A DNA stretch of 64,000 bases. It comes from Polytrichum commune. Its lineage: Eukaryota > Streptophyta > Polytrichopsida > Polytrichales > Polytrichaceae. The position numbers and the translations under genes are program-made. The DNA lies in the NCBI GenBank assembly GCA_950295325.1, contig OX485807.1:45372796-45436795 (forward strand). Direction: 5' to 3'. The notes under the pieces were generated by a model that did no database searches, was not told where the DNA came from, and saw nothing but the letters and a program-made list of their open reading frames with translations. This document shows positions 6,858 to 56,509 of the stretch, in pieces. The number at the start of each line of letters is the position of its first letter. Positions within the stretch are counted from its first letter, which is position 1.

Positions 6858-7208
6858 CTCGGGGGGGGGGGGGGGGGGGTAGTCATTGGTTGGAGTAGCA
6901 ATATACGTGCGAACAAATGATAGGGTATTTTAAAAACATGGGGGCTAAAAATTATAAATGGACTTAAGAGTAATATAGGGTATCAAAAATGGCATTGGAC
7001 ATCTTTAAAGTACTATAGGGTATGGAATAATAGGTAATTTGGAATTATAAATAATGCAAGCCATTTTTCTATTAACCCAAAGTAGAAATTTACATAATGA
7101 TAGCATGTGGGAAAAAGAAGAGAATTGAAAGTAATACCCCCCTATAAAATAGTGGTTGTTCGCACCTATATCCTTAATTTTTTAACACACTGCCCCCCCC
7201 CCCCCGAG
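6858..7208 (-). mobile_element. CTCGGGGGG MITE, copy b
   Basis: Reverse-orientation copy of the same MITE, 351 bp, with an expanded terminal G-tract. The 8-bp target duplication CCCTTGTT is perfect (6,850-6,857 and 7,209-7,216). Its length difference from copy a is largely in the terminal homopolymers. Confidence 0.92.
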
Positions 7209-7400
7209 CCCTTGTTGGTAAAAAATGAGATGTACAGTAAACTAACTAGCATTCCTTAATTCCAAATTGTAAGTGGCTATAAATATCATATTTGGTGTAG
7301 TTAGGATGCACACTAAAGAATATGATATAACTTAATTGATCAAAACGTTAAGGATCTGTTCTTTTGCAAAATTCAAAGCTCTTACGATAGTACCTTTAAA

Positions 7401-7427
7401 CACTATATTCGTTATTTGGAGACTTTT
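7401..7427 (+). repeat. left terminal inverted repeat of the 17.3 kb element
   Basis: Starts CACTATATTCGTTA and continues TTTGGAGACTTTT. It pairs with 24,719-24,745 with two mismatches. A second, looser inverted block (TTTTGAGACTA) follows on both ends. Confidence 0.8.
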
Positions 7428-7708
7428 TGTTAATTTTGAGACTATTTAAGGACGTGGCTTTCACATTTATAGGAATGAAAACACTAAAAATATGCTATGT
7501 TCCCAATTTTGGAAACAAATAAGAGACTCAAATGCATGGAACTACACATTAACAATAAGAAAATGGGATATATGAAAACATTTGCATATGGAAAATCAAT
7601 ATCATATTTATTGAATAGGGGTTGAAGTACAAAATGCAAGTGGAATATCCAATATTAGGCGAAAGTCCTAGAAACATAATTCCACAACTACATGTATGTT
7701 AATATAGC

Positions 7709-8569
7709 CTATACGTTCGGATCATGATTACGACTCACTACTTTTGCTTTTGCAATACTATTATTAGCATTTACGGCCGTTTCACGTTCCTTTGCTTTCA
7801 TGGCCTCCATGGCTCTAAAGATCTCGGGTCCGCGGCTGTAACCTTGTTTATTTGTTGACCCCGAATATGCGCCATTTGCCCATATTTGCCGACCCCCTTC
7901 CGAATAAGTGGAATACGAATGCGTTTGGGAAACCGAACGTCTTGCACTCTTCCGTAGGGCCAAACAACGATCAGACTCGCAAGAAGCTGTCTTCAGTGTT
8001 CGCCTATCCAATGACGAAGTCGATGATGCCCGGCCCACATTCGTGTACATTGGGGTCTGAACAATGACCATAAATATATATAATGAAGTGGGTTAGTATA
8101 AGTGGTTACAAGTTACGGATGGAAGTCCGAAAAACCCAAGAAGTTGAAATGCACTAATACACGGAAATCATCAAGGAAAAACTTGAGAATGCCAATAGTT
8201 GGGCACCTTCGCCTTTGGGGCGCTGGTTAGAGCTTTTGGGACATCGACGGGTGTAGATACAAGCCCGAGAGGGACGTTCGCAAACGCCGGGACATCAATT
8301 TGGGGTTCATCCATGCAAAGGCGTCTGGTCGACCGTGGGTTACGGACGTGCTTCTCACTGCGGAGGGGAGATGGAGATGGACTTGGAGAGTAATTGAGTT
8401 TTGCAACCTTTGCAGGAGGGCTATCCACGACTCCGTCTTCAAACCCGGAGTCTTTGGAGTAATCAACAGCAGAGGCAGCATCGACGGCCGAATATTGGAA
8501 TAGTGAAGGCATTGCAACGTCGCTCATACCAAGGGAAAGGGAGCCGGTGTCTGCCTGAGATGCAGACAT
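7709..8569 (-). CDS. Ser/Pro-rich protein of unknown function (two exons)
   Basis: Predicted exons are 8,569-8,207 and 8,056-7,709, joined in phase 0, giving about 236 residues. The intron starts with a weak GTGCCC donor and ends TTGTTCAG, and it contains a degenerate copy of the element's palindrome (8,113-8,133). The product has a Pro-Ser run (SPSPSPSPLRSEK) near residue 60, basic patches in the second exon (RRTLKT, RKSARRS) and no recognised domain. It looks largely disordered and could be nuclear. The start is uncertain: the frame stays open upstream to a good acceptor (GTGTCTTAG at about 8,606), so there may be another 5' exon and it could even belong to the phosphatase transcript. Confidence 0.5.
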
Positions 8570-8697
8570 GCCATTGACGACACTTTTGGGTGCTTGGTGA
8601 GGCAACTAAGACACAAAAATACATTACAAAGATAAGGGGAGAAATGTTAGATATTTACATGGAGAGTCCAAGTACAAACCCAAAATCATCAAAGTTT

Positions 8698-9417
8698 TCA
8701 TATTAATTTATTGAGTCTAGCGTAGCCGTACAATCTCCTAAATTCCTCATCTTGTGGGCCTAGAGGCCTATTGCCAATTGGGTTGGAGAGCACAAAATCC
8801 GGGACACTTCCGGGGTGATAGGCAAGCCTCCTAATGTAGGGTCCTAGTTCACTCTCTAGAAAGTTGTCATTTCTATCGCTTTCCCAAGGATCCGGGAATA
8901 TGCAATTGCCCGGGGGATTGAGAATACTCTTTGCCGGGCTGTCGTCAATGAGGAGTGTGTTATCCGGGGTGGGCCAACAACCGTGGGGAACCCCCTCCAA
9001 CATAGGGACGCCCACCCAGAGGTTCTTCCTCAGGACCTTTAAGAATTGAGGCCCACGACCCCCTCCGACCTTGGGTACAATATTGCCACTACGGTCATAG
9101 AGGTCATCGCAGTGTTCTTGACCGAGAAGCAAGCATGGCATTGCGAGTTCTCGGAAAAGGAAACCGACAATGGCCTTCGTGTTGTCCATGAGCATAGAGC
9201 TCCAGATGATGACATGGGCGAAGCCAAGGACCTCACGAAGGAAGCTCCTCAAACCGGGGCGGGCACGTACAACCTTCTTATTTATGAGAGTATCGAAATG
9301 TCCGCCGTAATCCATGTCTTGTGGACTACGGAAGGGCCCCTTGGACGCACTATTCGAGATATGTTTGGATTGACAAAGCACCCCATTGAGGTCAAATATT
9401 ATGAACGGTTTCATCAT
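8698..9417 (-). CDS. FCP1-like HAD phosphatase
   Basis: A single exon encodes 239 residues covering a whole FCP1 homology domain. Seen in order: motif I FDLNGVL near residue 8, motif II IIWSSM near 70, a conserved Lys region RKNLW near 130, and motif IV LLIDDSPAKSILNPPGN near 155. The DDSP..LNPP block is diagnostic of FCP1-type protein phosphatases, which act on phosphoserine in proteins such as the RNA polymerase II C-terminal domain. The usual DxDGT of motif I is DLNG here: the second Asp, the general acid/base, is Asn. A DxNG form also occurs in some plant FCP1-like proteins, so activity is not excluded. It lies inside the 17.3 kb element between the Ser/Pro-rich gene and the ParB-like gene on the same strand, so it is probably captured cargo. 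Substrate unknown. Confidence 0.82.
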   Translation of the reverse strand: MMKPFIIFDLNGVLCQSKHISNSASKGPFRSPQDMDYGGHFDTLINKKVVRARPGLRSFLREVLGFAHVIIWSSMLMDNTKAIVGFLFRELAMPCLLLGQEHCDDLYDRSGNIVPKVGGGRGPQFLKVLRKNLWVGVPMLEGVPHGCWPTPDNTLLIDDSPAKSILNPPGNCIFPDPWESDRNDNFLESELGPYIRRLAYHPGSVPDFVLSNPIGNRPLGPQDEEFRRLYGYARLNKLI

Positions 9418-9754
9418 GGGCGCGCTTGGTTTTCCCGCGGGGTTGCGACATATCTCCGACGGACCCTGTGATGGAACATTCTATCTAGGTAAATGGTACT
9501 ACTCAAGAAAACCAATTGACAAGCATGGATAAACTCAACACAAATTATAAGGCCAAAAATAATCCGAACCATCCAGTTGAAAAATTGGTATTAATGTAAT
9601 TGGTGATATACATTTGGTGAATAATATACATTGTCGCAAAAAATATCTGTTGAAGTTAATGGAATCTATGCTAACAAAATTGTATCCACCCGCCGGGCGA
9701 AGTCGAGGATTGAACTCGATAATATACACACGCCACGAAGGAGGCAGACAAGGA

Positions 9755-9890
9755 AGTTTTGGACGCGCGTCCGTAACGTGGGAGGCATGCTCAAAGGTTG
9801 ATTACCTCTTCAAGGGCGAGGTCCGCGCCAGCAGTGCCTCCCTCACCTGGCCCCGTCATGGGCACAGGATCCGGACGCGCGTCCGCAAAA
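9755..9890. repeat. two palindromes at the 3' end of the ParB-like gene
   Basis: GGACGCGCGTCC cores at 9,761-9,772 (downstream of the stop codon) and 9,873-9,884. The second lies within the coding exon, where it encodes part of FADARPDP, so coding sequence tolerates the palindrome here. Confidence 0.85.
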
Positions 9891-12800
9891 TTGTCCAGAT
9901 CTTCGACCACCAACAAGGTGTCTCCAGCCGCTTGCGACCCTTGAGTATCCACGTAAGGCTGATCCTCATCTGTGGAGTCTTGGCTGCCCCGCATATGTAC
10001 ATCTTCATCGCCGATGGGGGCATTGCCTTCATTGACATCTGTCTCGGCGGCACCCGCCATGTCACGTGCCGGTATCTCCTCCACTCCTGTAGGATGAGAG
10101 GAGGGCTCCTCTGGAGTGGCGACAACAAGGGGAGAGGGCGGGACAATCAACGCGGGGGCTGGATAAGCATGCTCGGGTATATACACCGCATGGCTACTAG
10201 ACGGAGGCCGCATGAGAGTGGGGGGCATAGACATGACGGCATCGGGAGCTGTATAGACTACAGGGGGTCTTGCCTGCAAGCTCTGCATCAGGCTCATAAA
10301 TTGTTGACTTTGGGCCAAGAACTGTTGATTTTGGGCCATGAGATCGGCGTGCCTTCGAGCAGACTCCAACCTAGCTTGCTCCATCTCAGCTTGGATGGCG
10401 GCCATCTTTTTGGCGTGCTCCTCGTTAGCTTCTCGAAGCCGTTGGTCAAGCTCTTCCTTCATTCGCCTCTCCATCTTCTCGTCCAATTCGGACACTGACA
10501 TCGGCTCTTTCTTCACCTTGCCAGGTTCCGTAGGCAAGGCAGAGATGGCATTGTGAATCCTAATCTCATCCTCGTCTTCATCGGAGAGCTCCAAGACCGC
10601 GCCTTCAGGGTATTCGTTGTATGGCGTCTTGTTCCTCTTTCGTCGACTCTCACGATATAGAGAGATATCAGGCCTCAATATCAACTCCAGCACATCCCTC
10701 CCCTCCATAGGGGGTAGATCTGAATGTTGAGATCCCCCTCCAGATGAAGCGGTGCATCCGCCTTCTGCCGCAAGGTCCACATCCTTCTCGGCCATAACTC
10801 CTGGAGCACGAGATGGACCCGCAGTTGAGGGAAATCCAACTCGAGAGGTGGGAGTCCCAAAAGGTGAGAGAACAGGGGTATGAGGGACCCTTATCGGAGT
10901 GAAGTTCACGCGTGCCTCCTGCGCATCCGTGTCGTCTGTTCCCAGCAGGAAAGCACTTGGATTAATTGGGTCGCGAACAAGGCCGTGTAAAGGCTCCTGT
11001 GTGGAGGGTTGCGCTCTTGGGGAACTGGGATCTTGGTCCTCTTCAGGGTCTGTCTCCATTCCGGGCATTGCCTCTTCTCTAGAAGAAAGAGGCACAACAG
11101 GATGGGGTGTAAGGACGTCCATGATGTCCTGGATATCCATTTTGGAGGCCATTACCCTGTGAGTATGGGCGTCATCGTAGTCGGAATCCTGCACAAAAGA
11201 ATTCACCTGCAAGCCAAGCATCTGGACCATAACAAGAAAATTAGATAAGAACAATAGTGGTGATTGCATATAAATGAGGCTAGATGTCAACACGTTATAC
11301 GGACGCGCGTCCGTAAAACCACCACTCAAAAGTTGGACAATTTTACGGACGCACGGTCGTAAAATTCACATGCACCTGATACTGGGTTTTTACGGACGCG
11401 CGTCCGTAAAATAACTATGCAAAAGATAGGTGGGTTGAAAGACAAACAAATACTCACCAGTGCTGCATACATAAACTTCGTGCCTCCGAAGACGTTGTAA
11501 ACTGTCTCACTCATGACAGTTAAAGCCTTCAAGACCCCTATATAAAAGTCCATCCGGAGCTCGAACGCCGGATAGATTGCATGCATTGTCTCCTCAACAA
11601 GCTCCTTGGGATGTGGTGGCGGCAACGAATAGACTTTCCTGAACACCTCGTGTGGTTTAATGGGCAATCGCCCAGTTGGGGAAGACTTGCGTGTTAAGAA
11701 ATAAAGCTGCACAGCTCCCACTTGCTTCACCCCCCTTGCCTCTTGAATGAAAGTGATCCCTTCTGTCTTCGCTGGGATGTAGGTGCTGTGGTACATATCG
11801 TATTCGAGGTCCATCGTTGATGTGTACAGATGGACAATGGATGTGGACCTCTCTTGCTCTACAATCCATAACCACACATGAGGCTCGAAGAGGGCAGGCG
11901 AGCGATAGCTCTTGAAGGCTTTTAAGAAGGGCTCGTAGAAGGGTGCTCCCGCAACGTCTTGCTTCCATGCTCCGGGAATTGCACGAAAATCAAAAATGGC
12001 GAAAGGGCAACCCCTGGGGTCATCTCTCACAGAGGCTCTTGAAGCATAGGTGTCCCATGCGCCGAACTTCATGCCCTTTGCGACCGTGCAGAATCTTGCA
12101 AACCCTCCAAATTTCGCGTTCTTTTTCCTATCGAGAAAGTGAACATACAACCCTGCCTCCCTCTCGTCGATGGATCCCTTCTTTTCGTTCCTTCTGGATC
12201 GTTGGGCAAGGAAGGATGATGCCCCTCTTATCAAAGCTCGCATTGAGACGCCATTGATGTGGTATTCACCCTTCAGCTTCCTCCAATTCTCCCACACGAT
12301 CTCACCATCACTATTAATGAGGTTGTGGGTGGGTAGCAATTTGCTAATCTCCCTTACAGCCATGGTCTTCTTCTTTCTGTAATCGCACCATTCCTTAATG
12401 TGGTACGTGGATGGCTTCATGTGCTTCGGCCGCTTCAGAAAGATTTTGGGATAGGGCAGAGTTCTTCTAGGAGTTTCTAGAAGAATGTGTTCTGCTGCCC
12501 TGTACAGCTCCGAGTCCATCAATCCTTGGAGGGGACGAAAGAACTCTCGCAGGATTGGTGGTACCTTAACTTTTGAGTCGCTCTTGTAGGTGTTCTCCGT
12601 ATCTGGATTGACAAGGTCGCCGTTGTTGTGGGCATCGAAAAGTCGCAACCATATTGACCACGTCTCTTCTGTTGCAGTGATGAGCTTGAGTTCGCCTTTT
12701 AATTCATGCACTGTTTTCATGCCGCTTGTCTTCATGTCTATACTCAAGAACTTTGTCAATATGGCATTGCTGAATGTCTGCAAGAGGCGCGAATTGCAAG

Positions 12801-14199
12801 AACTGAGAACATTGAATTCAGTACAAATTAAATTCAAATATTTGAAGCAGTGGGAGGAGAAGGGCCACATTTACGGACGCACGTCCGTAAATCTATTTGA
12901 GTAACATACCTGCCATTTTGGGTTCTTCACGACAGCATTATCTCTTTCTTTTGGGGGACATTCGTGCTCCACCCACAAGGTCCTCCCAGCCACGATGTTG
13001 GCTGCCCATGAAGCCTCGAACTGCCTCACTTTATTCCCCTGGTTCATGAAGGCAGATATTGCTATGAGTTGGTTCGAGTCCTTGGAATGCACGACGAATG
13101 CCTTCCAATATCGGATTGTCTCCTTTAATGGGCTTTTCCACTCGTCGTCTTCAAGGAGAGCTTTTGCAGCCATTACACTATGTTGGCCGTCGACAATGTA
13201 GAACTCTCCATTCTTGAGAATCGGCCAATTTTTTTCGTTGACTTCAACGATAGGATCCTTTGGTGTCACACAAATGGTTTGCCTGTCAAACTTGGGGTTG
13301 TTCATGATGTTGTTCATTTGCCACCATACACCGCTTTCTTCTTTTGCTCTGGTATTCATACTTTCGGTGCCCTTGTGGCATTTGTAGACGTCTACTTCGA
13401 AAGTAAAATACCTGCCAAGGGGCCAGCATCCCTTCGTCTTCTCATCGAACTCTTGGAATATTTTTGTTGAGAGTTCGGCGTCAGGGCGTTGACCCTTTTT
13501 GAGGAGTGGAGCGACAGTCAGTGTAGAGCTGACATCCGGACCCTCTGTTAGTCCAGAGTCCATCTGCGAGTGAGAGCGTTTACTCGCCTGTCTGCTCCCT
13601 CTTGATGCACCACTCTGCGAGGGCCTTGAGGATTCCGGCACTGGTTTAGGCACACGCTTAGGTCGTTCAGGAACGACTTGTTTTTTCTTATCTTTCCCCT
13701 TTCTGGCCTCTAGCAAGGCTCCATTTACTCTTGTTACATTGTTCAAGAGTCGTCCAAGCCGCTTACCCGTCCAAGGTGCATTGCATGCATAGTCTTGGAA
13801 CTCCGTCTGGAGATTGAAGCAAGCCGCATCTGTACTAGCATTCTCACACTCATTTTTGTTGAAGGGGTGGTAGGATTCGTGCAAAATGAAAGTGACCCGA
13901 TCTTCTTTCTTCTCAAGGTCTATTACTACATAATCCCCTTGTGCCACTGCACACTCTACTGTCCACGATTTAAGCTTTATCCACTTCTCAGCTTCATCTA
14001 TGTCCGTCTTCATTTGATATGCAAATCTAAGCACAAATATTTCTTTCTCGTCCTTTTCTACCAATACTGTCCAATTATCCACAATTTCATCTTGTGACTT
14101 GTAATGGTCGTTGGGACTTATGTCTTTGATGGCTTCTGGTAGCGGAGGAATGAGAGCTTCTGCGAACATCTCAATTGCATGTCTCTTTTTAGATGCCAT
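9791..14199 (-). CDS. ParB/sulfiredoxin-like (DGQH motif) large protein
   Basis: Three exons join cleanly in phase 0: 14,199-12,910, 12,777-11,458 and 11,221-9,791, giving 1,346 residues. Donors are GTATGT and GTGAGT; acceptors are TCTTGCAG and GGTCCAG. The N-terminal 150 residues are unknown. A Lys/Pro/Ser-rich basic linker (about 165-225) looks like a nuclear localisation region. A ParB/Srx-like segment with FYIVDGQHSVMAAKAL falls at about 333-347, followed by helix-rich sequence to 400. The 440-residue middle exon is unknown, and the last exon has an acidic, disordered stretch, then a strong coiled coil (EEHAKKMAAIQAEMEQARLE). The DGQH signature matches the DGQHR/GERR loop of the ParB/Srx fold, a DNA-partition, nucleotide-hydrolysing or nuclease fold; I infer DNA binding. 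Both coding introns contain palindromes. Confidence 0.72.
11297..11413. repeat. three palindromes in intron 2 of the ParB-like gene
   Basis: Copies centred near 11,306, 11,353 and 11,400, all within the 11,222-11,457 intron. The middle one is imperfect (GGACGCACGGTCG); the outer two have the full GGACGCGCGTCC core, the third with extended TTTTTACGG arms. Confidence 0.9.
12869..12892. repeat. palindrome in intron 1 of the ParB-like gene
   Basis: A 24-bp palindrome with one central mismatch (TTTACGGACGCACGTCC core), close to the 5' donor of the 12,778-12,909 intron. Confidence 0.9.
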
Positions 14200-14252
14200 C
14201 TGCAAATGATAAGATAGATAAGTTAGAATTCTTGGCAAAAGATATAGATCAT

Positions 14253-14403
14253 ACTTTACGAACGCGCGTTCGTAAAGTTTTCCAAATTGTCTCAATTATA
14301 TTTTTGGATCCAAATGAAAAGATACATTTCTTCCAAATACGCATAACGCATATATTATATACTCAAATATCTCTATAAGTTACGGACGCGCGTCCGTAAA
14401 CTT
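14253..14403. repeat. two palindromes upstream of the ParB-like start codon
   Basis: Centred at 14,265 (a variant with matched changes on both arms, TTTACGAACGCGCGTTCG) and 14,390 (canonical core). Compensating changes in the first keep it perfectly palindromic. Confidence 0.9.
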
Positions 14404-14455
14404 CGCAAAGATAGTATGGTGGTAAATATCAATGTATTCAAGTTACGGTTAATAT

Positions 14456-14990
14456 TTTTTTGAGAGTCTTGTTTCACACCTACATTTTTGAGAGTCTTGT
14501 TTCTCACCTACATATATTTTTGAGAGTCTTGTTTCTCACCTACACAAAGATCCACAAAGTTTACGGACGTGCGTCCGTAAACTTTGAGTATTATAAAGGC
14601 TATTTTAATATGCCTAATATTACAATATTTGGCTTCGTTTGCGTAATATATTGTTTGAGAGGCTTGTCTCTCACCTACCCAAAGATCCACAAAGTTTACG
14701 GACGCGCGTCCGTAAACTTTGAGTATTATAAAGGTTATTTTAATATGCCTAATATTACAATATTTGGCTTCGTTTGCGTAATATGCGGTTTGAGAGTCTT
14801 GTTTCTCACCTACACAAAGATCCACAAAGTTTACGGACGCGCGTCCGTAAACTTTGAGTATTATAAAGGCTATTTTAATATGCCTAATATTACAATATTT
14901 GGCTTCGTTTGCGTAATATGTTGTTTGAGAGGCTTGTCTCTCACCTACACAAAGATCCACAAAGTTTACGGACGCGCGTCCGTAAACTTT
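14456..14990. repeat. 135-bp tandem array carrying 30-bp palindromes
   Basis: Four units at an exact 135-bp period: palindromes start at 14,556, 14,691, 14,826 and 14,961. Each is a 30-bp inverted repeat, AAAGTTTACGG on the left arm, with the ACGGACGCGCGTCCGT core (one GTGCG variant). The units end in CTCACCTACACAAAGATCCAC. A shorter 35-bp repeat (TTGAGAGTCTTGTTTCTCACC) leads in at 14,460-14,540. The array lies in the predicted 5' untranslated intron of the ParB-like gene. Because 135 is a multiple of 3 the array is open in frames on both strands, so its ORFs are not genes. Confidence 0.95.
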
Positions 14991-15350
14991 GAGGATTATA
15001 AAGGCTATTGTAATGTTTGCGTATTCCAATGTTTTCATTAATGCTCCGTGTTTTTCGGGACTTTACCTTGTCGTCCAATATGGTTTTGCCCTCCAAATAA
15101 GAATGCAATTTTACTTCACTGCAATAGCAAACACTGCACTGCAGATTGACAACATAAGGCACTTTCAGAACACTGACATGTCCATAACTAAATGATTCTT
15201 AGAATGTAGCCATAGACAAAGTACTAAACAAATTCAGAATTCCTTGAAACTGGAATCTCACATTCTGTCATGCTAACCTTAAGCCCTAAACCACAACAAC
15301 CCAAAATTGCAATCATACAAAATGCAATTGCAATGTTCTAAAAAACTTAC

Positions 15351-15409
15351 CTTTCTAGAGTGTTTGCTCCTAAACCACAACTAGCTGCTCCTGCTGCAGC
15401 TAATACCAA
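15351..15409 (-). other. predicted 5' untranslated exon of the ParB-like gene
   Basis: On the minus strand a clear acceptor (CATTTGCAG) precedes 59 bases that end at a consensus donor (AAAG then GTAAGTTTTT). The next acceptor, TCATTTGCAG, abuts the ATG at 14,199, so the intron 14,200-15,350 would contain six palindromes. Further consensus donors on the same strand near 15,742 and 15,794 suggest more untranslated exons toward 16 kb. Confidence 0.5.
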
Positions 15410-15801
15410 CTGCAAATGAACAATAAAATTGAGGTCAGAAACCTCTAGTAATTCAATGTGCACATGCATGATTCAACATTGAGAACTACTCAAAAAAGTT
15501 GCTCATAAATCAGATTCATGCAACACAAGTGAAAGGAAACTATTGATTTGTATGCAAAAAATATAATGAACTACATGGTGAAGCTACAACTGAAACCCTA
15601 ATGAGCAACATCTGAAACACTAATTACCCTTGCAACAACTGAGATCAACAACTGAAAACAACCTAATGAGCAGTAGCAAGCAACAATGAGCATCCTAATG
15701 ATCTAATGAGCAGCAAGCAAGCAAGCAGCAAGCAAAACTTACTAATGAGCTAATGAGCTAATAAGCAAATGAGCAGCAAACAAGGAGAACTTACTCTAGC
15801 T

Positions 15802-15815
15802 CTGACGCGCGTCAG
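15802..15815. repeat. short variant palindrome CTGACGCGCGTCAG
   Basis: Perfect 14-bp palindrome sharing the ACGCGCGT centre but with different arms, directly 5' of a minus-strand splice donor. Confidence 0.7.
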
Positions 15816-15839
15816 CAATTGACCAATAAGAATGAGTTT

Positions 15840-16345
15840 TGCATTGTGAGGAAAGAGAAGCAAGACCAGCAAGGGAAGCAAGAGAAGAGAGAGAAGAAAG
15901 TGAAGATAAGGGTAAGAAGCAAGAGAAACAAGAGAAGAAAGTGAAGAGAAGCAAAAGAAGCAAAAGAAGATGAGCAGATGAGCAAGAGAAGATGAGAAGT
16001 TGAGCAAGAGAAGATGAGCAAGAGAAGAAGAGTAGATGAGCAAGAGAAGATGAGCAAGAGCAGATGAGCAAGAGAAGATGAGCAAATGAGCAAGAGAAGC
16101 AAGAGCAGATGAGCAAGAGAAACAAGAGAAACAAGAGAAACAAGATAAACAAGAGTTGCAAGAGAAGGAAGCAAAAGCACGAAGAGGAGGGCAAAAGGGA
16201 GCTGGTGTACTTTGAAACCCTATAACCCTAAAGCAAGAGAAGCAAGAGCAACAGTAGAAGGAACGGAAGGAAGAGATGATAGAGAAGGAAGGAAAAGCAC
16301 GAAGAGCGAGGGCGAAAGGGTGCTGGAGTACTTGGAACCCTAAAA
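15840..16345 (-). promoter_or_regulatory. polypurine/polypyrimidine tract, possible promoter or leader
   Basis: About 450 bases are built of GAAGCAAGAG-like units on the plus strand, so CT-rich on the minus strand. Near its right edge a 65-base segment (GCACGAAGAG...CTGG.GTACTT) is repeated at about 16,170 and 16,300. CT-rich leaders are common around plant transcription starts, and it lies upstream of the predicted untranslated exons of the ParB-like gene. No TATA box is obvious. Leu/Ser-rich ORFs here are composition artefacts. Confidence 0.4.
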
Positions 16346-16792
16346 CAATGGCATGCCTCCACGTGTCCCTACCCCAAACGTCGCGCCCAATCGCCGGCCT
16401 ATACCCTTACGTGGCATCACCCTACTGGTCTATATTTGGTATTGAAATAGGGGTTTAATTTATACTTAGTTTGGTGATTTTATTATCATATTATGTCATA
16501 ATAACATCTTATGTTTATGCTAAGGCAAGTTAAAAGTCACACTAAATGTCACTCTAAATATAAAATGAGCCATCTCGTTGCCTCTTCTCTTCACTTTTGA
16601 TAATGAGTGAAATATTCATACGAGCTCTAGAAAGTATTCATTATTTTAGGAAATTATATTAGGGTGTGAGGTTGAGTAAATTATTATGTCATTGTCAACA
16701 ATTAAATGACATCAATAATAATAATAATATCATTTTGGAACTCCAAACAATGAGAGAAACTAACTACAATTTCTAGTGTGGCCTCTATGGAG

Positions 16793-17737
16793 AGTGGGGG
16801 AGCACCTTTCATTAAAACCTAGAATCACGTGCGTTCACTGCATACTCTAAAAACCCCCTAATATATACAAGTGATTTTTTGTGAAATGAAGTAATACACA
16901 TACAATTGCAACAATAAATATACAAGAAACAATATGTATACACAAAAAAACATCCATTCATATATATTAGTCATTACTCGGGGGGGCAGTGTGTTAAAAA
17001 AATAAGGATATAGGGGGGTATTACTTTCAATTCTCTTATTTTTTTTCACATGCTATCATTATATAAATTTCTACTTTGGGTTAATAGAAAAATGGCTTGC
17101 ATTACTTATAATTCCAAATTACCAATTATTCCATACCCTATACTACTTTAAAGATGTCCAGTGCCATTTTTGATACCCTATATTACTCTTAAGTCCATTT
17201 ATAATTTTTTGCCCCCATGTTTTTAAAATACCCTATCACTTGTTTGCACGTATATTGCTACTCCAACCAATGACTGCCCCCCCCCCCCCGAGAGTCATTA
17301 ACATAAGTATACAAATGCAATTATTGTCTCGAAGTCTACCATGGAATGATCAATAAGATCATATGTCCACTTGTTGTTAGCCCCTTTTGATACCAACATA
17401 AACCAATCTCCACGTTTGATGGACGGTCCATCAAGTCAAATGGATCCCTATACTCCACCCAACGATTACCAAACTTCCTCCGCATCCTATAAACTCTCCC
17501 AACAAACCAAACCTTATGAAAACTTATCCAATATGAACACTTATGATATATAGTATAGTAACAATACCATACAAGTACAATTATTCTATACTTTTTAAAG
17601 GCCTTCCATATATGTACGTAACTATAAATTATAACATGTATACCATATGTATATGCAATACGGCAAGGTCCAAATCAATACCCCTCCTGTGCACTCACGT
17701 ATAACTCGTACATGTTTAGTACAGTGCACCCCCCGAG
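16793..17737 (+). mobile_element. 8-bp-duplicating element with G-rich ends (nested host)
   Basis: Flanked by a perfect 8-bp duplication CTATGGAG (16,785-16,792 and 17,738-17,745). The right end is AGTGCACCCCCCGAG and the left end AGTGGGGGAGCAC. Without the nested MITE it is about 630 bp. Parts of it recur at 60,290-60,610 (right-end half) and 60,757-60,835 (left-end half). It is non-coding and probably related to the CTCGGGGGG MITEs by its ends and duplication length. Confidence 0.8.
16977..17292 (+). mobile_element. CTCGGGGGG MITE, copy c (nested)
   Basis: 316-bp copy with perfect 8-bp duplication AGTCATTA (16,969-16,976 and 17,293-17,300), inserted in the 16,793-17,737 element. It lacks the short GTGCGAACAACC segment seen in other copies. 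Confidence 0.92.
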
Positions 17738-17745
17738 CTATGGAG

Positions 17746-19800
17746 GGGACTCTATATTTCGAGAATAGTAATAATATTCAATAAAAGGATGTCTTGTTGA
17801 TTAACTTCAGTATAAGAATTCTTTTTCTTCTCAAAGGTGGGATTCAAATGCAATTGGGGCAATATACCAATTGGCCACAAATTCTCATGAAACTTTGCCA
17901 AGAAATACTTGTGAATCCCTCAATTATCGCAATAAGTTGTGAAACGCAATTAACAAAACCGAAACATCGAGATATGGGGAGAATTCATATGCTTGTAATA
18001 CCTTAAACAACATTACGGATTAATTCAATCCCTCCACACATAGGTCTAAGCTTGTATTAAAACAAAATGCATGGGTATGTGTTGAATGTACATCCCTCTT
18101 GTACATTAAACAACCTTTCGGATCCATCCAATCCTTCCACACATAGGCCTCAGCTTGTATTATCGCTTATAAGTAGTAGCAAACTTGTTTATATTTGGAG
18201 TTTTCTTTCGGTGGTGAGTTGTGTTTAGGACTCGATTATAGAATACCAATATACGATCTTCAAAACCTTTCATCAAAAGTATATGTTTAAAGCAAATGGT
18301 TTAAAGCCAAAGAAAGATTTAAAAAAATGAAAGGTAAGGTTACCCCTAAATTTGCTTCACATTTGAAATGTTTATGGTTTTATTTTACAAAATTTAAAGG
18401 TAGTCATATAGTTTTGAATTACTTCCACTTAAGGCTACACATGTATTGGGAGTTATTCAGTTAACCATGCGTACCGTATGTCGTTGTGTTTGTTCAGGGG
18501 TGGGCGGTTATAGGGTATAGGGTATAGGGTATAGGGTATAGTGTTTAGGGTATAGGGTATAGTGTTTAGGGTTTAGGGTTTAGGATTTAGGGTACCACGT
18601 ATGAACTAATGAGAGTATCCCCCTTCTGTCACCAACTTAAAATTGCTTGCCTTTATAATATTTGGATACCCTACCCTCCCCTTCTCTCCATTATGGTTTG
18701 TTGGGCTCATAATGTTACTTAGAACAACAACTGCTATTGTTTGAGTCAATATTGTAGATAATGTACATGGGGTACTAAAAATTGTTTTTTGTCTCACGTA
18801 TAGTACATTAAGAATGCTAGTATTATTTTTTTTGAAATAAATGTTGATGTATTGAAGGGGGCCCTAAAGTTAAGAGAGGAAATTGAGAATATTGATTTTA
18901 AAGCAACCCATAGTGCCTATGACAATAGATGTGCTATTTTCATGGCATCTAGGCGCTCAAAGTTTGTGTACGTATTAGTATAATTATGTATAGGTGTGTA
19001 AAAGTGGGTAAATTAAACGGGTTGGATGGTAGGGTGGTGGCAAATGTAATTACTAGTTTAAATGCTAGATGAGAGGAGATAACATGATATTGGAGTGAAT
19101 ATCATTACATCGTATGCAAAACAATAAAATAGATGCTAGTTTAATTTTGAATGACACGTATTTTTATACTCCATGTACTATTGTTGTTGTTGTGGTTGAT
19201 GTTTCACACGACACTATAATTTTCTGTCTCCTAGTTCTACAATGACCTCTCAATATTAGGTACTTCAATATTATAAACCACCCCTCAACAATGTTCAATG
19301 CTCATATATTATTAGCCTATTTTCTTTGTTGTCCACCATAAATACGTAGATGCCTTTTGCTTTGTCATTATGTGGACTCATCGTCTATGCATGTTGTCCA
19401 CTATGAATACACATTCCATTGTAAGGCTGGCACACGGAATGTAGTAATGTTAGGTTTTTATTTATAGGACGTAGATGGTGGCTAGTATCCTATGTTGGAA
19501 AACGGATCCAAGGGAAACGATCAGTACTTAAGGGGACACCCCTCCACCAAGGGACTCTTTTTGCATCTCAGATGTGGGTTGCGCTGCTTGGACCCTTGTA
19601 GTGTTCTGGATGTTTATTTCGTGCAGGTACAGATCCTATTGCAATGGACCTTTTATACCCTAAACACTAAATTCCAAGCCATAAACCCATTAGTGGAGCC
19701 AATTTTATGTGGATTGCACTGTCTGGATCCTTATAGTGATTGATTTTTGTTTATGGCAAGTATCGTTCCTGGTGAAATGGTCCTATTATGGCGCCGCAAA
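17746..19800. other. non-coding interior of the 17.3 kb element
   Basis: No supported gene. It holds a 55-base direct repeat (TCCACACATAGG.CT.AGCTTGTATTA, 18,008-18,062 and 18,110-18,165), a telomere-like tract, and a loose duplication around GGA.CCTTGTAGTG (19,570-19,640 and 19,715-19,775). Confidence 0.5.
18495..18596 (+). repeat. degenerate telomere-type repeat, GGGTATA and TTTAGGG
   Basis: About a dozen units that grade from GGGTATA into GTTTAGGG, the plant telomere repeat, reading 5'-3' on the plus strand. It is interstitial and short, so it is not a chromosome end. Confidence 0.85.
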
Positions 19801-19806
19801 TCACGG

Positions 19807-20214
19807 AGGTTTACGGACGTGCGTCCGTAAACCTTAAACCTCTTGCTTGGTTGGATATCTATTTCTGTGAGAATTGCACTTGAGCTATTTCATGTACATT
19901 GAGGTTTACGGACGCGCGTCCGTAAACCTTAAACCTCTTGCTTGATTGGATATGTATTTTTGTGAGAATTATACTTGAGTTATTTCATTTACATTGAGGT
20001 TTACGGACGCGCGTCCGTAAACCTTAAACCTCTTGCTTGATTGGATATCTATTGTTGTGAGAATTATACTTCAGCTATTTCATGTACATTAAGGTTTACG
20101 GACGCGCGTCCGTAAACCTTTAACCTCTTGCTTGATTGGATATCTATTGCAGTGAGAATTATACTTGACCTATTTCATCTACATTGAGGTTTACGGACGC
20201 GCGTCCGTAAACTT
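19807..20214. repeat. 95-bp tandem array carrying 28-bp palindromes
   Basis: Five units at an exact 95-bp period: palindromes start at 19,807, 19,902, 19,997, 20,092 and 20,187. Each is an inverted repeat with AGGTTTACGG arms and the GGACGCGCGTCC core (first unit GTGCG). The spacer has a conserved CCTCTTGCTTG.TTGGATAT and ACTTGAGCTATTTCATGTACATT. The array ends about 780 bp upstream of the DUF7869 start codon. Its spacer is unrelated to that of the 135-bp array, so only the palindrome is shared. Confidence 0.95.
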
Positions 20215-20369
20215 TTGCACCTTTTTGTTCCATTGTTCGGTATTGCACCTGAGCTGACATCATGACCACTTGCCATGTATAGTATACCAACGAGACTGTA
20301 TTGTCATGAAAATTTTCTGACTCACGTCCAGTAACCTAAACCTATTTGTGCTAGTAATGAGGTACAGAG

Positions 20370-20855
20370 AGGTTTACGGACGCGCATCCGTAAACCTGCA
20401 AACCTTTGGTTCCATACTTTTCACTATGTGCCATGTAGAATATTACATTGAGACTGTACGGTCAATGGAGGTATAAGATCCCTAAACCCTAAGCTTACAT
20501 CACCCTATGTGTCATAGTATAATATTTTGACATTCATAATACACAGTAGGAACCTGGCACCTGGACATCTTGGTTTCCTAAACCTCTGTGTGTCTTGCAC
20601 AACACTGACTTTTGACATTCGGATGTTTGCGGACGCACGTCCGTATACCTATGTTGTATAGTTTGCGAAAACATTTGCGCATGATATTGACCTCTTTGAC
20701 CACGAAGAGATTTACGGGTGCGCGCCCATAAAACTGTCATGTTTTTGTTGTCTGGACCTTTCCGCCGACTATGAACAAATAAAGACATATGTATGCGCGT
20801 GCTTGCACTGATAATGTTGTTACATGGAGATATACGTACGCGCGTTCGTATACCA
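20370..20855. repeat. four diverged palindromes upstream of the DUF7869 gene
   Basis: Found at 20,370-20,397, 20,624-20,649, 20,709-20,734 and 20,829-20,855. Cores are GGACGCGCATCC, GGACGCACGTCC, GGGTGCGCGCCC and GTACGCGCGTTC. Several changes are matched on the other arm, so palindromy is better kept than sequence. Confidence 0.85.
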
Positions 20856-20993
20856 ATGTGTCTTTGTTTCCAGGCCATGAAATCCACTATTGTTGACATT
20901 GTGTTTCATTGACAATAAGCGTTAGGACTATCCATGACATTTATTGAATGGGATATTTTGACATACTCTTCATGTGGGTCACTTGTAGTGGCC

Positions 20994-23900
20994 ATGGATT
21001 CCAACGTCCGAGATAGTGCATTCGAGTTCTCTTCGGAAGCGTCAAGCTATGCTAGCGAATTTGAAGGTGTTATGGAACATGAAACTACAATTGGTGTCGC
21101 CAATGCAGAGGATGATTTCATACCAACATGTGAGGGTTATTCGCGGGAACAATGGATTGATCTTGATGTTGTCATAGTCAATGGATACGGCGTCCCCGTG
21201 GCCAATGGTGTTTGTAGGAACTCAAATCCTATGGACTGTATTGATGCAAATCCCCTTGGGGAGGAAGATGTTGGGGTGTGCATTTTGAACTCCTTACATC
21301 CATTGGAAGTACCTCCTGGTTGGAGATTCTCTCTTCGTCGATGGCCGTTGCGAAGTGTTCTTCACGATGGTGTCAGCTTGTGGAATCATGCACGTCGTTT
21401 TGAGGAAATACAAAAGACTTTGTTCGCCACAATGCGTCCTAGACAAGGTCGGCGTAAATATGATTCCGTTCGCGTGCCCCGTGAACCCACGCAACGTCGT
21501 CGAGATCTAACATTGGGAGACACATCTATTAGGTCCGTAGCAACAAAGGATTGTTGTGCAAAAATGTGTTGCCAACTATTTCCCCGTGACAAAATCAAAT
21601 CTTTGAGACAAGAGATGTGGCTTGCGGACTTTCGGATGCGATCTGCAAAGAAACTTGAAGTCCATCGCAACATGCATTTTGATGCCGAAGGTCGTAAGGT
21701 TGTGACCTTGGAAAATATAGAGGTATGCTGCACGGCATGGTACATTATACATGCAGTTTCAAAGGCAGATTTTTATAGGTTCCGGAACTACTCGCTGCAA
21801 GGACGGCGTTCTCGGTTCCATGGCAACTCTGGTACAAAGAAGCCCAGGGAGGCAACACTCCAAGCAGCTGCAACACTATCAACCATCATTATGCCATTAG
21901 CAGATGCGATGCCACACAAAACACGGACTCTGCCGTCGGGGGAAAAGGTTGTCCAGATGGTTTTGCCTACAGGGACAAAATGGAAGAACATACTTATGGA
22001 TGTTAATGAGGTTGGCGAAAAGGCTGGATGTGGGCCGATTTCGTTGTCAAAATTGAGTGTGATCAAGAATCAACAATTTGCAGAGTACATTACGAAGAGG
22101 CCTGGGGATAAGTTTGCCAGGTGTTCTGCTTGTGAAAAATACAAGGGCCTTCGAGATGCACATCCCATAGGGACTGAGTCGCACAATAGACATCAACGGA
22201 AATACATTGAGCATGTCAACAACCAAGAGGCACACCGTCAAGACTACTACAAGAATCGCGCATTATCGATAATGAGGCCGAATGAGGTTTTGACAATCAT
22301 TCATGACAAAATGGACCATGCGAAGACTGCGTGCCCTTGTTATGCACGGAAAATAAAGGCTACAGATGGATATTTCAAGCTCCCAATATCTGTCACAGGT
22401 TCGTTGGTTTTCACATTTTTTTTGCGAACCCACATACTCATCGTTAAGAGTTACGGATGTACATCCGTAAGTGTTTGTTCATTTTCTTGGCCTGCTTGCG
22501 GAAAAATTGAATTTCCTTATTATAAATGATATTGGAATGTACTTCTCATTTGTATGTCTTAATTCAGGTATGATCGCACATGGCCATGTGGACGTCAAGT
22601 ATGCACATTATGGCTTGGATTTCTATCCAGGCGACGCCAATCATACCGTAGGGTCTTTTGCAAAACTTCTACGAGATCTTGAGAGTCCGCCAACATCATC
22701 CTCTCGCGCTCTTTTTGTTGGATGTGGAACAACACCGATTTATGAGGCTGTGCTAGAGGGGAAAGAAGTATGTCTATCGTCACTGCAAGAACCGCCTGAA
22801 CAAACCGTTCTTGCTAAACCTTTGCCTCCAACTCTACATGTGCAACTGGACAATTGTGCCAAAGACAACAAATGTCGATACGTGTTTTGTTTTTGGTCAT
22901 TGCTCGTAGCCAAGGGCATTTTCAAAGAAGTGTTTGTGTCTTTTTTGATGGTTGGCCACACGCATGATGACATTGACGCTTCATTTGGACGTTGGAGTAT
23001 GAAGTTGCACGAGGAGGATTTTCCGACGATTCCTCTTCTCATGAAATCATACATGGATTTGGATAATGTGCCAGTCATCCCGCATTTGATTGAAGAAGTG
23101 CCCGATTTCAAAGCGTTTATCGAACCATTCATTCTTAAGGGAGGTGACCGTTTAGTGGGCCATACCAAGGCTCAACAATTCCGATTCTATATGCGTGATG
23201 ATGGTTTGCCGGCCATGCAATTCAAAGTTTTGTGCACTTCCCCGGATTGGGGTCCAGAGGAAGGGATACTCGTATGGCGCCAAAACGAAGAAGGCAAATG
23301 TATGCTACCTGATGGGGAGCCGAAGCCTTGCAAACCCAACCCCATGAGGAATGGACCAGAAATCATCAAAGGTATATCCGGATTCATCCAATATTGGAAA
23401 GAATTGTGCGAGGAAGACATCACAAGGCGTGTTCGGGATACCCACGAACCATTGATTACGTACTGGGATCGCATTCGCTCAGCATTGCTAGCACCCGATG
23501 TCGAAACACATTCATGTTTGACACAAGGTTTTTGGCCACAAAGCCGAGTGACAATCGTGGAATCTGAGGCCATGTTCTTCGACAATGGGGACATCCGTGA
23601 AGAGTTCGCAGCGGACGACCATTATGTTGGCCCAGCTCGTAATCGTCTGGCTCCATCATTTCGTGTGGCTGTTGATTGCTACGAAGGGTATATGATCCTC
23701 GTACGTCCTGGAGATGAGGAGCACCCTAAACCGATTTGGTTGGTAAAAGCATTGTCATCACCAAATTTTGTTCCAACTAGCCCAAATTTTCATCAAATTG
23801 AGGTGGAATATTGCCGTCCCAGCACCAAAGATCAAAATGTGCTCCGCACATATTTAGAGTGGGACACCAAAAAAGGTTTCAAATGGACAATGGACTCAGC

Positions 23901-24090
23901 ATACGAACCAATATGGATAAACACAGATACCATACTTTGTGCTTGGAAACCACGCAAAGGTTCCAAATCAGAGACAATGACCATCCCCCAAAAACATATA
24001 GATTTTGCCAAAGACAACTTGGCACGTATTGCTGCTGCAGAAAACGATGTCGAGAATGGAAATGAAGCTGAAGATGAAGATGGAGAATGA
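20994..24090 (+). CDS. DUF7869-type protein, candidate transposase
   Basis: Two exons, 20,994-22,398 and 22,568-24,090, join in frame across a codon (ACAG donor, TTCAG acceptor) to give 975 residues. An in-frame ATG also lies at 20,934. Exon 1 has Cys-rich pieces that could bind zinc (CCAKMCC near 185, CSAC near 375) and DKMDHAKT near 438-445. Exon 2 has VQLDNCAKDNK near 557-567 and VGHTHDDIDASFG near 597-609, the hallmark blocks of DUF7869 proteins. The three acidic blocks are spaced like a D-D-D/E RNase H-type catalytic triad; that reading is inference. The C-terminus is acidic (GNEAEDEDGE). It is the only plausible mobility enzyme in the 17.3 kb element and is transcribed away from the palindrome array. 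The intron holds a perfect variant palindrome. Confidence 0.8.
22449..22472. repeat. variant palindrome in the DUF7869 intron
   Basis: Perfect inverted repeat AGTTACGGATGT and its complement, core GGATGTACATCC. The ends match the family; the centre is changed symmetrically. Confidence 0.88.
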
Positions 24091-24718
24091 TATTGACGTA
24101 GGGTTGGACCACAATTATTTGAAATGTGTCTTGGTTTTTCATGAAATATATGACATTGGGGTCGAATACTATATTAGACACATTTTATAGCAATTTTATA
24201 GATTACAATTATATATCATGATTGTATTGATTTACGGATGTGGAATCCAACTTCACATGCGCTATCAAATGTTTTTTATATGTTTGTGTTTACGGATGTG
24301 GAGTCCAAACTATATAATTATATTGCAGATGCTAATTTGCAATTTCTTATACACACTGTCAAATTATTTTAATATTGTTGCGTTTGGGATGTGCCGTTCA
24401 ATTCACCCACAATTGGCTAAGATGTTATGTTTGGGATACGCATCCAAGAGTCCCTAGATATAAAATCAGATGGCTATTTATAGATTCATTAATTTTGTTC
24501 AATACAAAATCAAAAATACAAAATAATTGTGAATTTGTGACATTGGAATATTGTGTTGGCGTAGTTTTGATTATCCCCCAAATAATTACTATATTTAGAA
24601 ACATATATATTCATCACATATGGATCTTTCGAACATTATGTTGCCATTGTTCCCCATGTTCCCTACGTTCACAATATTCGCATCCGAAACTACGGGTCCA
24701 ATTTATTTTGAGACTTTC
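24091..24718. other. 3' region of the element with decayed palindromes
   Basis: No gene. Half-decayed palindromes occur at 24,230-24,250 (TTTACGGATGTGGAATCC) and 24,289-24,310 (TTTACGGATGTGGAGTCC), and a GGATACGCATCC near 24,436. C-to-T type changes would explain the loss. Confidence 0.55.
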
Positions 24719-24745
24719 CAAAGTCTCCAATTAACGAATATAGTG
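24719..24745 (-). repeat. right terminal inverted repeat of the 17.3 kb element
   Basis: Reverse complement reads CACTATATTCGTTAATTGG then AGACTTTG; pairs with 7,401-7,427. A local hairpin (GAGACTTTCCAAAGTCTC) overlaps it. Confidence 0.8.
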
Positions 24746-25067
24746 TTTTTATTGCTTTGGGACTAATTCGATTGTTTCAAGAATAACCAAACATTTCGGA
24801 AATTGTATTTTTGAAATCTAAAAAAAAATTATAGAGAAAAATGAGTTTTCCTTTAAACACGGGATTGACAAATTTAAAAATACATAATACGAATTCCCCT
24901 ATAAATAGCCAAAGTGGTAAAGGTACTACAATACATTCTTAAAATCACTTTCACTGAAACATGTGCAATGATTAAGAGTTGTCCACTTTACCATGCTTGC
25001 ACCCAACACGTAACTCCAAATGACAACCCACACTAATTAGGAAAAATAGTGCGGGGGACGTTAAGTA

Positions 25068-26320
25068 CCCCCCCACGAACTAATAGGGATTCCATATTCG
25101 GGCGGGGGCAGCCCTCCCACGAAATTTCTGCCCCCGCCCGGATTTTTTCCAAACCCGCCCGAAATAGCTGCCCGCCCCGCCCGAAAACGAAAAAAACATT
25201 GCTCTTCCATTCTTGAAGGCCGCTTGACTACAAATCCCATATTGAGTGCACTTCACCTTCAAGGTTTTAAATCCAATATATAATATGTGCACTTCCACCT
25301 AGTAAATAAGGCATTAAATGGGATTTCATTCCGGAAGTGAAACCATCAACCAAGAATGTAATTAACTTGGAAGTCAAAAAATTAGAAAATCCTCATCAAC
25401 ATTGAGGTTATAATTTTTATGACTTACCATTTGAAATTGTCTTCGTCATTTTTAAATGACACTTAAATTTAGTGTGCTGATGTGGTATGTATATTTTATA
25501 ATATTTTAGATAATTCTGGCTACTTTCAAGAATATTCATACGCACTTATTCTAATTAAGTGTGATTTAATGTAATTATGTCTAATTAATCCTGATTAATC
25601 CTAATTAATCCCAAATAAATCAGAAAGTATTCTTTCCAAATTAAGTAAGACTAATTAATCCTAAAACTTAATTACTGGAATTAACTCCAATTAAGTCCAA
25701 TCAATTTCAGTAATTACAATACTCAATTTTTATATCCAGTAAGCCTAATTAACCCTAAAATTTAATTAATGGAATTATCTCCAATTAAATCCGGTAATTA
25801 AAATAATTGATTAATTAGTTCCATTAAGTATATTTTATAAATAAGTGCGTATGAATATTCTTGAAAGTAGCCAGAATTATCTAAAATATTATAAAATATA
25901 CATACCACATCAGCACACTAAATTTAAGTGTCATTTAAGAATGACGAAGACAATTTCAAATGGTAAGTCATAAAAATTATAACCTCAATGTTGATGAGGA
26001 TTTTCTAATTTTTTGACTTCCAAGTTAATTACATTCTTGGTTGATGGTTTCACTTACAGAATGAAATCCCATTTAATGCCTTATTTACTAGGTGGAAGTG
26101 CACATATATATTGGATTTGAGACCTTGAAGGTGAAGTGCACTCAATATGGGATTTGTAGTCAAGTGGCCTTCAAGAATGGAAGAGCAATGTTTTTTTCGT
26201 TTTCGGGCGGGGCGGGCAGCTATTTTCGGGCGGGTTTGGAAAAAATCCGGGCGGGGGCAGAAATTTCGTGGGAGGGCTGCCCCCGCCTGAATATGGAATC
26301 CCTATTAGTTCGTGGGGGCG
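25068..26320. mobile_element. foldback element with 480-bp inverted arms
   Basis: Arms 25,068-25,559 and 25,841-26,320 are nearly identical inverted copies around a 280-bp AT-rich loop made of CTAATTAATCC repeats. The tips are CCCCCACGAACTAATAGGG, followed by a GC-rich stretch (GGGCGGGGGCAG). It is flanked by TA on both sides. No coding capacity; ORFs in the two arms mirror each other. Confidence 0.9.
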
Positions 26321-26322
26321 TA

Positions 26323-54982: not shown

Positions 54983-54986
54983 CCGG

Positions 54987-55260
54987 CAGGGTTGTCTATC
55001 GCGACGTCATGACGGTGTCGTGCCGTCATGTCAGGTCGTGTCGTGACGGACCCCTCCGTCACGACACAATAGGGTCCACGTAGGGTCAACATAGGGGGAA
55101 TGGACTAGGGTGGGTAAAATACTTACCTTCTTGCCAAGGTGGCGTCCTATGTGGCAGAAAACGCCGACGTGGATGTGCATATTTCCCTTGCCAAGTAAAC
55201 CATTTTGCCATTGTGTTTAGGGTTCTGTTAAAATCAAAGTAGAAAAATATGACTAAGGAG
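54987..55260 (+). mobile_element. CAGGGTTGTCTAT element B, left end
   Basis: Same terminal CAGGGTTGTCTATCGCGACG and about 85-90 percent like the start of element A, including GGGTGGGTAAAATACTTACC. It leads straight into the GC-rich arrays and the kinase gene, so the kinase region is probably interior to B. No matching right end lies in the window with certainty. Confidence 0.65.
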
Positions 55261-56245: not shown

Positions 56246-56296
56246 CCCCATGTCAAATCCGACCGGGATCCCATAATGATTGTGCTCCCCTTTGCC

Positions 56297-56304
56297 TATA
56301 TAAA
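56297..56304 (+). promoter_or_regulatory. TATA box of the kinase gene
   Basis: TATATAAA, followed by a CT-rich initiator-like stretch (TTCCCCTCACTTTCCTCTCC). It lies 213 bp upstream of the ATG and just after the GC-rich array, so the array occupies the promoter-proximal region. Confidence 0.65.
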
Positions 56305-56509
56305 GCCGTGGGGTTTTAGTTCCCCTCACTTTCCTCTCCTCCCACCACAAAGGGACCCGAGACCTTGTTGCCGTCCCAAGGACAGCGGCACCGCGCGGGT
56401 CTCAGGGGGTTTGGGAGGGCAAGGCAAATTGTGGGGGAACCCTCGCAATTTTTTTTCCAGATTCACGCACTCATTTCTACATTCACTCACTCACGCGGTT
56501 TTTTTCACG

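Follow-up and report, generated by a model that had tools for sequence, protein, structure and literature searches.

The question raised by this locus is what reads a palindrome that recurs many times within one moss transposon, next to a gene for a ParB-like protein, and to what end. The window, i.e. the whole stretch analysed, comprises 64,000 nucleotides of Polytrichum commune (GenBank assembly GCA_950295325.1, contig OX485807.1, positions 45,372,796 to 45,436,795 of the forward strand). It contains a DNA transposon of 17,349 bp at 7399-24747, which we assign to family A. Besides the ParB-like protein, the element encodes a DUF7869 protein, which is probably a transposase, and a NIF/FCP1-type phosphatase. 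In this study, we establish the palindromic sites, the slots which they occupy, their family specificity and their constraint, and we obtain a predicted ParB-like fold. With moderate confidence, we lean towards the view that the ParB-like protein binds the palindromes of its own family and keeps the genes of the element expressed.

The palindrome of family A is a dyad of 22 bases, TTTACGGACG-NN-CGTCCGTAAA, with 23 copies in the window element. Its 16-base core, ACGGACGCGCGTCCGT, gave 20 matches in the window with up to three mismatches, all of them at 9759-20849, where 0.02 are expected (100 shuffles). The 22-base form with up to seven mismatches gave 25 matches; those at 7885 and 20313 (5/11 pairs symmetric) were dropped as doubtful, and eight of the 23 kept are perfect. 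The reversed 22-base pattern had no match in the window, and 200 control palindromes with shuffled half-sites had 0.85 matches on average and at most six. A motif-free scan for perfect 10-N2-10 dyads found 12 in the element, all with the arms TTTACGGACG or TTTACGAACG (Markov null 0.05), and two unrelated dyads in the remaining 46.7 kb of the window. The first-pass annotation of this DNA had noticed about 26 palindromes confined to the element. The observation is borne out, with a number that was a little high and came down to 23, the outermost sites (8113 and, read by eye, 24230 and 24290) being half-sites or degenerate. Modelled coding exons cover 44% of the element, yet 22 of the 23 sites fall elsewhere (P 2.9e-5); if each array counts as a single site, 15 of 16 do so (P 1.2e-3). 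Here the site at 8112 may be miscounted as non-coding, because a small gene near the left end is unmodelled. Upstream of the two gene starts there are 15 of the 23 sites, and a further five are found in introns.

Throughout the genome (408 Mb in 64 contigs were searched), the perfect 22-mer of family A with CG spacer is present in 878 copies and its reversed form in none. Concerning palindromes outside the element, an outcome considered in the first-pass annotation, the first 50 listed of these 878 sites are all in family-A element copies. Forty-nine of them form seven clusters, each with a match to exon 2 of the ParB-like gene. The fiftieth is single and lies in a family-A stretch whose longer pieces are about 80-90% identical to the upstream DNA of known copies; this stretch holds 10 sites with up to four arm mismatches. 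The location of these 50 sites, together with the shuffle and Markov nulls, leads us to reject random genomic palindromes. Exon 2 itself has at least 84 scored genome copies (of 1,204 first-look candidates), ranging from 99% down to 72% identity.

A Pfam search of the genome for DUF7869 gave at least 150 scored matches (of 1,491 candidates) in several open-frame sizes. Members of other open-frame sizes, fetched without prior knowledge of their content, yielded three further families, B, C and D, with DUF7869 and ParB-like genes; the NIF phosphatase gene is common to A, B and C. Compared with family A, the proteins of family B (L020, L021) are 65-66% (DUF7869), 29-42% (ParB-like, by part) and 41% (NIF) identical. 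The dyad of family B is GTTTGGGTCG-NN-CGACCCAAAC, with 9,231 genome sites (reversed control 0). Upstream of the DUF7869 gene it recurs in 78-bp units, 19.5 copies in tandem; further arrays lie upstream of the ParB-like gene, and sites are also present in both introns and at the 3' end of that gene. Slot mapping placed no dyad in the DUF7869 intron of family B, and one there in family C. Family C (L019, L022, L023) has a DUF7869 protein 44% identical to that of A (33% in the last part), a ParB-like protein 22% identical to that of B (E 2.5e-18) and a NIF protein 36% identical to that of A. Its dyad, CCCACGGGTG-NN-CACCCGTGGG, has 644 genome sites (reversed control 0). Copies precede both genes and also occupy the intron of DUF7869, the two ParB-like introns and the 3' end. 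Family D (L024) has a DUF7869 protein 27% identical and a ParB-like stretch with the DGQH motif (E 6e-5); its dyad, GGGTGAGGCA-NN-TGCCTCACCC, stands in two large arrays, and no NIF gene was seen in the 10 kb fetched. Near its 3' end, the ParB-like gene of A has a dyad within the coding sequence (9868-9889); judged by open frames, this holds for B (L021, about 3166-3260) and C (L023, about 2238) too, and the protein sequence there therefore follows the palindrome of the family.

Each of the four motifs belongs to one family. In 11 elements searched with the four motifs (up to three mismatches in 20 arm bases), matches were strictly diagonal, and the reversed motifs gave one match in total. Since the seven fetched A elements had been chosen by motif and the motifs of B, C and D derive from tested elements, an independent test was made. 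It comprised seven A and seven B copies spread over the lists of ParB-like matches (84 and 94 rows) and five C copies recognised in the DUF7869 list by the size of their open frames; all were trimmed to the exon or domain with 450-700 bp of additional sequence. D stood outside the test. These copies, picked by protein match alone, held the motif of their own family in 19 of 19 cases and any other motif in 0 of 19. The proposed covariation of gene and palindrome in other copies is thus strongly positive. Regarding ParB-like genes devoid of palindromes, which had been named as a contrary outcome, the 19 related copies all have palindromes; a degraded copy of family D (L025, G000:C2:52986001-52994000) has DUF7869 and ParB-like pieces side by side and no palindromes. 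Its middle with the arrays appears to have been deleted.

In all four families, 10-bp arms surround a spacer of exactly 2 bp. In sites with one arm mismatch or none, the spacer varies freely in B (nine dinucleotides in 38 sites); in C it is AA, TT or AT, in D either CA or TA, and A has CG in most cases (86/108). By eye, G at positions 6, 7 and 10 is common to the arms of A, B and C. The initial description as CpG-rich fits family A with five CpG per site and fails for the kind as a whole, with two in B and C; as family D has none, CpG content is rejected as the point of the motif. Matched changes that keep the symmetry, seen already in the first reading of the window, recur in 910 arm pairs from 91 distinct A sites of eight elements. 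In 34 pairs both bases have changed yet remain complementary, against a permutation mean of 13.5 and a maximum of 27 (0/2000 reach 34), counts of a sort that kinship between sites inflates; 16 pairs have two changed bases that do not match, and 145 have only one. In five comparisons of A subfamilies over the ParB-like region, identity was 0.86-0.94 for palindromes (0.68 with E1), 0.73-0.94 for coding sequence and 0.37-0.67 for other non-coding DNA, in alignments which may lean on the palindromes. A motif-free dyad scan of the family-A copy E7 also returned at least two unrelated arms. The pattern looks like that of a selected protein-dimer site with arrays repeatedly remade, as if each family had its own palindrome code in a lock-and-key manner.

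The ParB-like protein of the window has 1,335 residues from three exons in our splice model; the 1,346 first given reflect a different splice choice. With a structure model of its relative P0006, the first 14 Foldseek rows were ParB/Noc, and KorB was among the matches. The predicted structure thus has the N-terminal fold of the ParB/Noc/KorB family, which backs the ParB/Srx-type assignment made from the DGQH motif. GQHS in this protein presumably stands at the arginine-rich CTP motif of ParB. Several ParB alignments extend to residue ~553, into the region after the ParB fold, where a helix-turn-helix part for DNA binding would be expected, with an rmsd of 6 to 13 and moderate confidence. Less surely, the model also matches a DNA methyltransferase-like fold. 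Beta-class DNA N6/N4 methyltransferases have a catalytic motif of the DPPY type; at the expected place, judged by eye, the proteins of A, B and C read DFR..PG or DTR..PG, and the catalytic motif has apparently been lost. A YEATS match at residues 76-119 (E 0.018) is below cut-off. A PDB sequence search gave nothing with exon 1 and two chance-like rows with the A1 profile.

The DUF7869 protein has 975 residues (PF25273, E 3.8e-42, 144.5 bits vs a cut-off of 26); its low-confidence model (pLDDT 54) gave no Foldseek match at E 0.001, either to the RNase H-like fold of DDE transposases or to any other. In the Pfam scan of the five modelled pieces, which leaves a small unmodelled gene outside, DUF7869 and NIF were the matches above cut-off, and no Mutator-type transposase, the type encoded by VANDAL elements, was seen. 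ParA was not among the gene products scanned, in a survey without a dedicated ParA search. Word-based searches of a large protein database gave at least one and at least nine relatives of the ParB-like protein (P0006 in both) and at least six of the family C DUF7869 protein; such searches need shared words and two scored part of the candidates, so that rarity is not to be read from these counts. Among public proteins, the predicted C-terminal tails of P0007, P0013 and P0014 seem to run into intron 1, and by eye the tail of P0007 resembles a translated B-type palindrome and those of P0013 and P0014 an A-like variant. The pairing of gene and palindrome may therefore exist in other datasets. In the ParB-like gene of family C, a first-exon candidate (L027:298-327, G000:C5, also L047 and L048) reads MARTKQTARK followed by a splice donor, the letters being identical to the start of histone H3; after this intron, GG follows at an H3-like distance. 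The candidate exon is present in three of five C copies, one of them with a silent change, and was not found in the guessed stretch of the other two. A histone tail mimic is possible from these letters.

We propose that the element is a large transposon of the cut-and-paste type which would encode its own sequence-specific DNA-binding protein. A ParB-like dimer would bind the 22-bp dyads, two 10-bp half-sites at a fixed 2-bp spacer, which the element would have multiplied in tandem arrays upstream of both main genes and in introns. Many sites occupied at once would mark the element's own DNA and keep its genes expressed against host silencing, much as is the case for VANDAL transposons with their VANC proteins. 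Dyad and protein would diversify together, and each family (A, B, C, D) would act on its own kind only. We infer the ParB-like protein as the reader because its fold reads palindromes in bacteria, the DUF7869 protein should read the ends and the NIF protein is a phosphatase. Such phosphatases act on the RNA polymerase II tail, and a role of NIF in expression is possible for this reason. The parS-like or operator-like site set suggested at first is supported; the ParB-like protein would read it, with the DUF7869 protein as alternative reader.

Anti-silencing or activation, rather than repression or transposition, is suggested by analogy. VANC proteins of Arabidopsis VANDAL elements bind motif arrays and strip members of their own family of silencing marks, as two papers describe (PMC5735166, PMC10398659). 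The likeness extends to a transposon-encoded factor (which the ParB-like protein here would be), to family-specific short motifs in tandem repeats at intronic and intergenic positions, to arrays varying between related copies and to a different motif in a related family (PMC5735166, PMC10398659). The elements studied here likewise carry such arrays in their non-coding DNA, each family with its own motif. The VANDAL motif is the short YAGTATTAY, whereas ours is a 22-bp dyad (PMC5735166, PMC10398659). The proteins differ as well, being ParB-like, DUF7869 and NIF here. On this arrangement, self-specific anti-silencing or activation is proposed as the likeliest outcome.

Several observations weigh against this proposal. 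The structure model of the ParB-like relative has a mean pLDDT of 52, with 57-87 in the ParB part by blocks of ten. Covariation does not single out the ParB-like protein, because all genes of the element diverge between families. In the E1 comparison the palindromes (0.68) are less well kept than coding sequence (0.73). In family D, the array upstream of DUF7869 has 11 sites, each of them with 2-4 mismatches, and only three perfect dyads were found in the 10 kb. Sites of the C type also occur in a non-coding repeat lacking element genes. Of 50 listed among the 644 C sites, two clusters that include a DUF7869 match account for 24, a block at 19.79-19.88 Mb that has one such match for 14, and nine isolated places with none among the matches listed for 12. 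Three of these places were fetched (L052, L053, L054) and represent one internally repetitive repeat, 97-98% identical in long stretches, with two to three C palindromes each (up to four arm mismatches), two of them ~394 bp apart. Its longest open stretch is 122 residues, and tblastn found no relative of the A or B element proteins in it. This repeat may ride on the family C protein, as a trans-acting factor would allow sites without genes.

The main rival to anti-silencing is autorepression: the ParB-like protein would repress its own promoter and that of DUF7869, or balance their expression, with the dyads as operators. Arrays upstream of both genes fit this, as does KorB, a ParB-family repressor, among the fold matches. 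Sites in introns and at 3' ends and arrays of up to 19.5 units exceed the needs of an operator, though, and array growth fits selection for strong occupancy; we judge this unlikely, if a serious contender. Slightly less plausible is that the dyads are transposase sites at which the DUF7869 protein gathers the parts of the element for excision, like the repeats of En/Spm, where repeated subterminal motifs are read by TnpA. DUF7869, probably a transposase, is present in all four families, and the motif changes along with it (65% identity between A and B, 44% between A and C). Subterminal sites are nevertheless disfavoured by position: those with up to four mismatches keep a distance of more than 2.3 kb from both ends, most of them being situated in introns and upstream arrays about 4-8 kb from the nearer end, and only a degenerate one is nearer (0.7 kb). 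Moreover, E7, with a ParB-like protein of 73% identity, has the 16-base end unaltered.

That the dyads are substrates of the methyltransferase-like domain, for adenine or cytosine modification of the own element, is quite improbable. Neutral spread, in which slippage grew the arrays with palindromes as passengers, is more improbable still: arrays clearly expand and contract and their periods vary between subfamilies and families, but the different units all hold the dyad, and conservation is far higher in the palindromes than in other non-coding DNA, with paired changes. Hairpins in RNA or single strands, serving splicing or decay, would suit the perfect symmetry and the intronic sites, but most sites stand upstream of the gene starts, and a loop of 2 nt is too small although every spacer has this length, which leaves this the least credible reading.

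A broader reading, which we put forward only tentatively and consider on balance doubtful, is that a ParB/parS-type system of bacterial ancestry entered eukaryotic DNA transposons and split, within one genome, into several mutually orthogonal protein-dyad pairs. The ParB-methyltransferase-like protein of a family would coat elements of its own kind only and thereby escape silencing, and in family C its start would add a copy of the H3 tail as a decoy for the silencing machinery. With ParB-parS, Noc-NBS and KorB-OB the element shares a ParB-like domain followed by a helical part and the presence of clustered palindromic sites, to which a dimer logic may be added. It differs in its eukaryotic transposon context, in 22-bp 10-N2-10 dyads (parS is a 16-bp site), in sites within introns and arrays and in the putative additional methyltransferase-like domain. 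ParB-methyltransferase fusion (polyvalent) proteins exist in phages and plasmids and have a ParB-like part followed by a DNA methyltransferase-like fold, an order that the model suggests for the present protein as well; here the catalytic motif is apparently lost and the host is a eukaryotic transposon with introns. Among the matches listed in the open-access literature, there was no report of ParB in eukaryotic transposons, and DUF7869 had no mention there.

The ends of the element read AACACTATATTCGTTA.., the terminal inverted repeat beginning AACACTA. Perfect 4-bp target site duplications flank all five family-A copies with both ends (TTTA, CACT, TAAA, ATGG and TAAG, all different); in three further copies a single end was located. 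CACTA (En/Spm) elements start with CACTA, have a 3-bp target duplication and carry subterminal repeats bound by TnpA, and one from soybean reportedly reaches 20.5 kb. Ends containing CACTA, many repeated motifs and large size are shared, whereas the present element has internal motifs and a DUF7869 protein; membership is rejected from the AACACTA ends and the 4-bp duplication in five of five copies. The features of the element are given in Table 1.

Table 1. Position of genes, ends and palindromic sites of the family-A element in the window.
Feature	Position	Strand	Basis or remark
Target site duplication TTTA, left copy	7395..7398	.	5/5 two-ended family-A copies with perfect 4-bp duplication
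Left terminal inverted repeat, AACACTATATTCGTTA...	7399..7426	+	
Degenerate site left of NIF gene	8112..8133	.	6 mismatches, 6/11 pairs symmetric
NIF/FCP1-type phosphatase gene, single open frame	8698..9417	-	Pfam PF03031, E 3.2e-13
Two palindromes, 3' end of ParB-like gene	9756..9889	.	9756 past stop, 9868 within coding sequence
ParB-like gene exon 3 (last)	9791..11188	-	Splice model; Pfam scan, no match
Three palindromes in ParB-like intron 2	11296..11410	.	
ParB-like gene exon 2, helical part and methyltransferase-like domain (predicted)	11458..12777	-	Splice model
Palindrome in ParB-like intron 1	12870..12891	.	
ParB-like gene exon 1, N-terminal part and ParB-like domain with DGQH motif	12910..14199	-	Splice model
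Two single palindromes close upstream of ParB-like gene start	14255..14400	.	At 14255 and 14379
Tandem array upstream of ParB-like gene	14512..15014	-	135-bp units, one palindrome per unit
Tandem array upstream of DUF7869 gene	19806..20212	+	95-bp units, one palindrome per unit
Four single palindromes between array and DUF7869 gene	20373..20852	.	At 20373, 20626, 20711 and 20831
DUF7869 (putative transposase) gene exon 1	20994..22398	+	Splice model
Diverged palindrome in DUF7869 intron	22450..22471	.	6 mismatches, 10/11 pairs symmetric
DUF7869 gene exon 2, most of DUF7869 domain	22568..24090	+	PF25273
Right terminal inverted repeat	24720..24747	-	
Target site duplication TTTA, right copy	24748..24751	.	

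Similar short open frames in the window and in family B, compared by eye, suggest a further small gene left of NIF. An inverted repeat of ~300 bp, 96-97% complementary, is found outside the left end (6867-7199) and inside the element (16980-17289), perhaps a separate small transposon inserted twice. Just to the right of the element, a foldback element at 25065-26323 has long inverted arms of 100, 152 and 268 nt (90-99% complementary). A lone copy of the element end sequence with one mismatch, perhaps a relic, is present at 31263-31278. The region 54000-58500 has 53-63% G+C and overlapping long open frames of up to 1,054 residues, other 2-kb steps having 32-52%.

One genome thus holds four natural families with four different 22-bp dyads. 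More than 10,000 perfect-arm sites and at least 178 scored ParB-like copies (A and B) are enough to seek a recognition code by sequence alone. If the proposal is true, private motif arrays would be used once more, by transposons with apparently unrelated proteins, to act on their own kind, and sequence-specific anti-silencing of the VANC type would become testable as a general strategy. Should the ParB-like protein be the reader, eukaryotes would also put the ParB fold to use on clustered palindromes, and these elements would offer orthogonal DNA-binding pairs.

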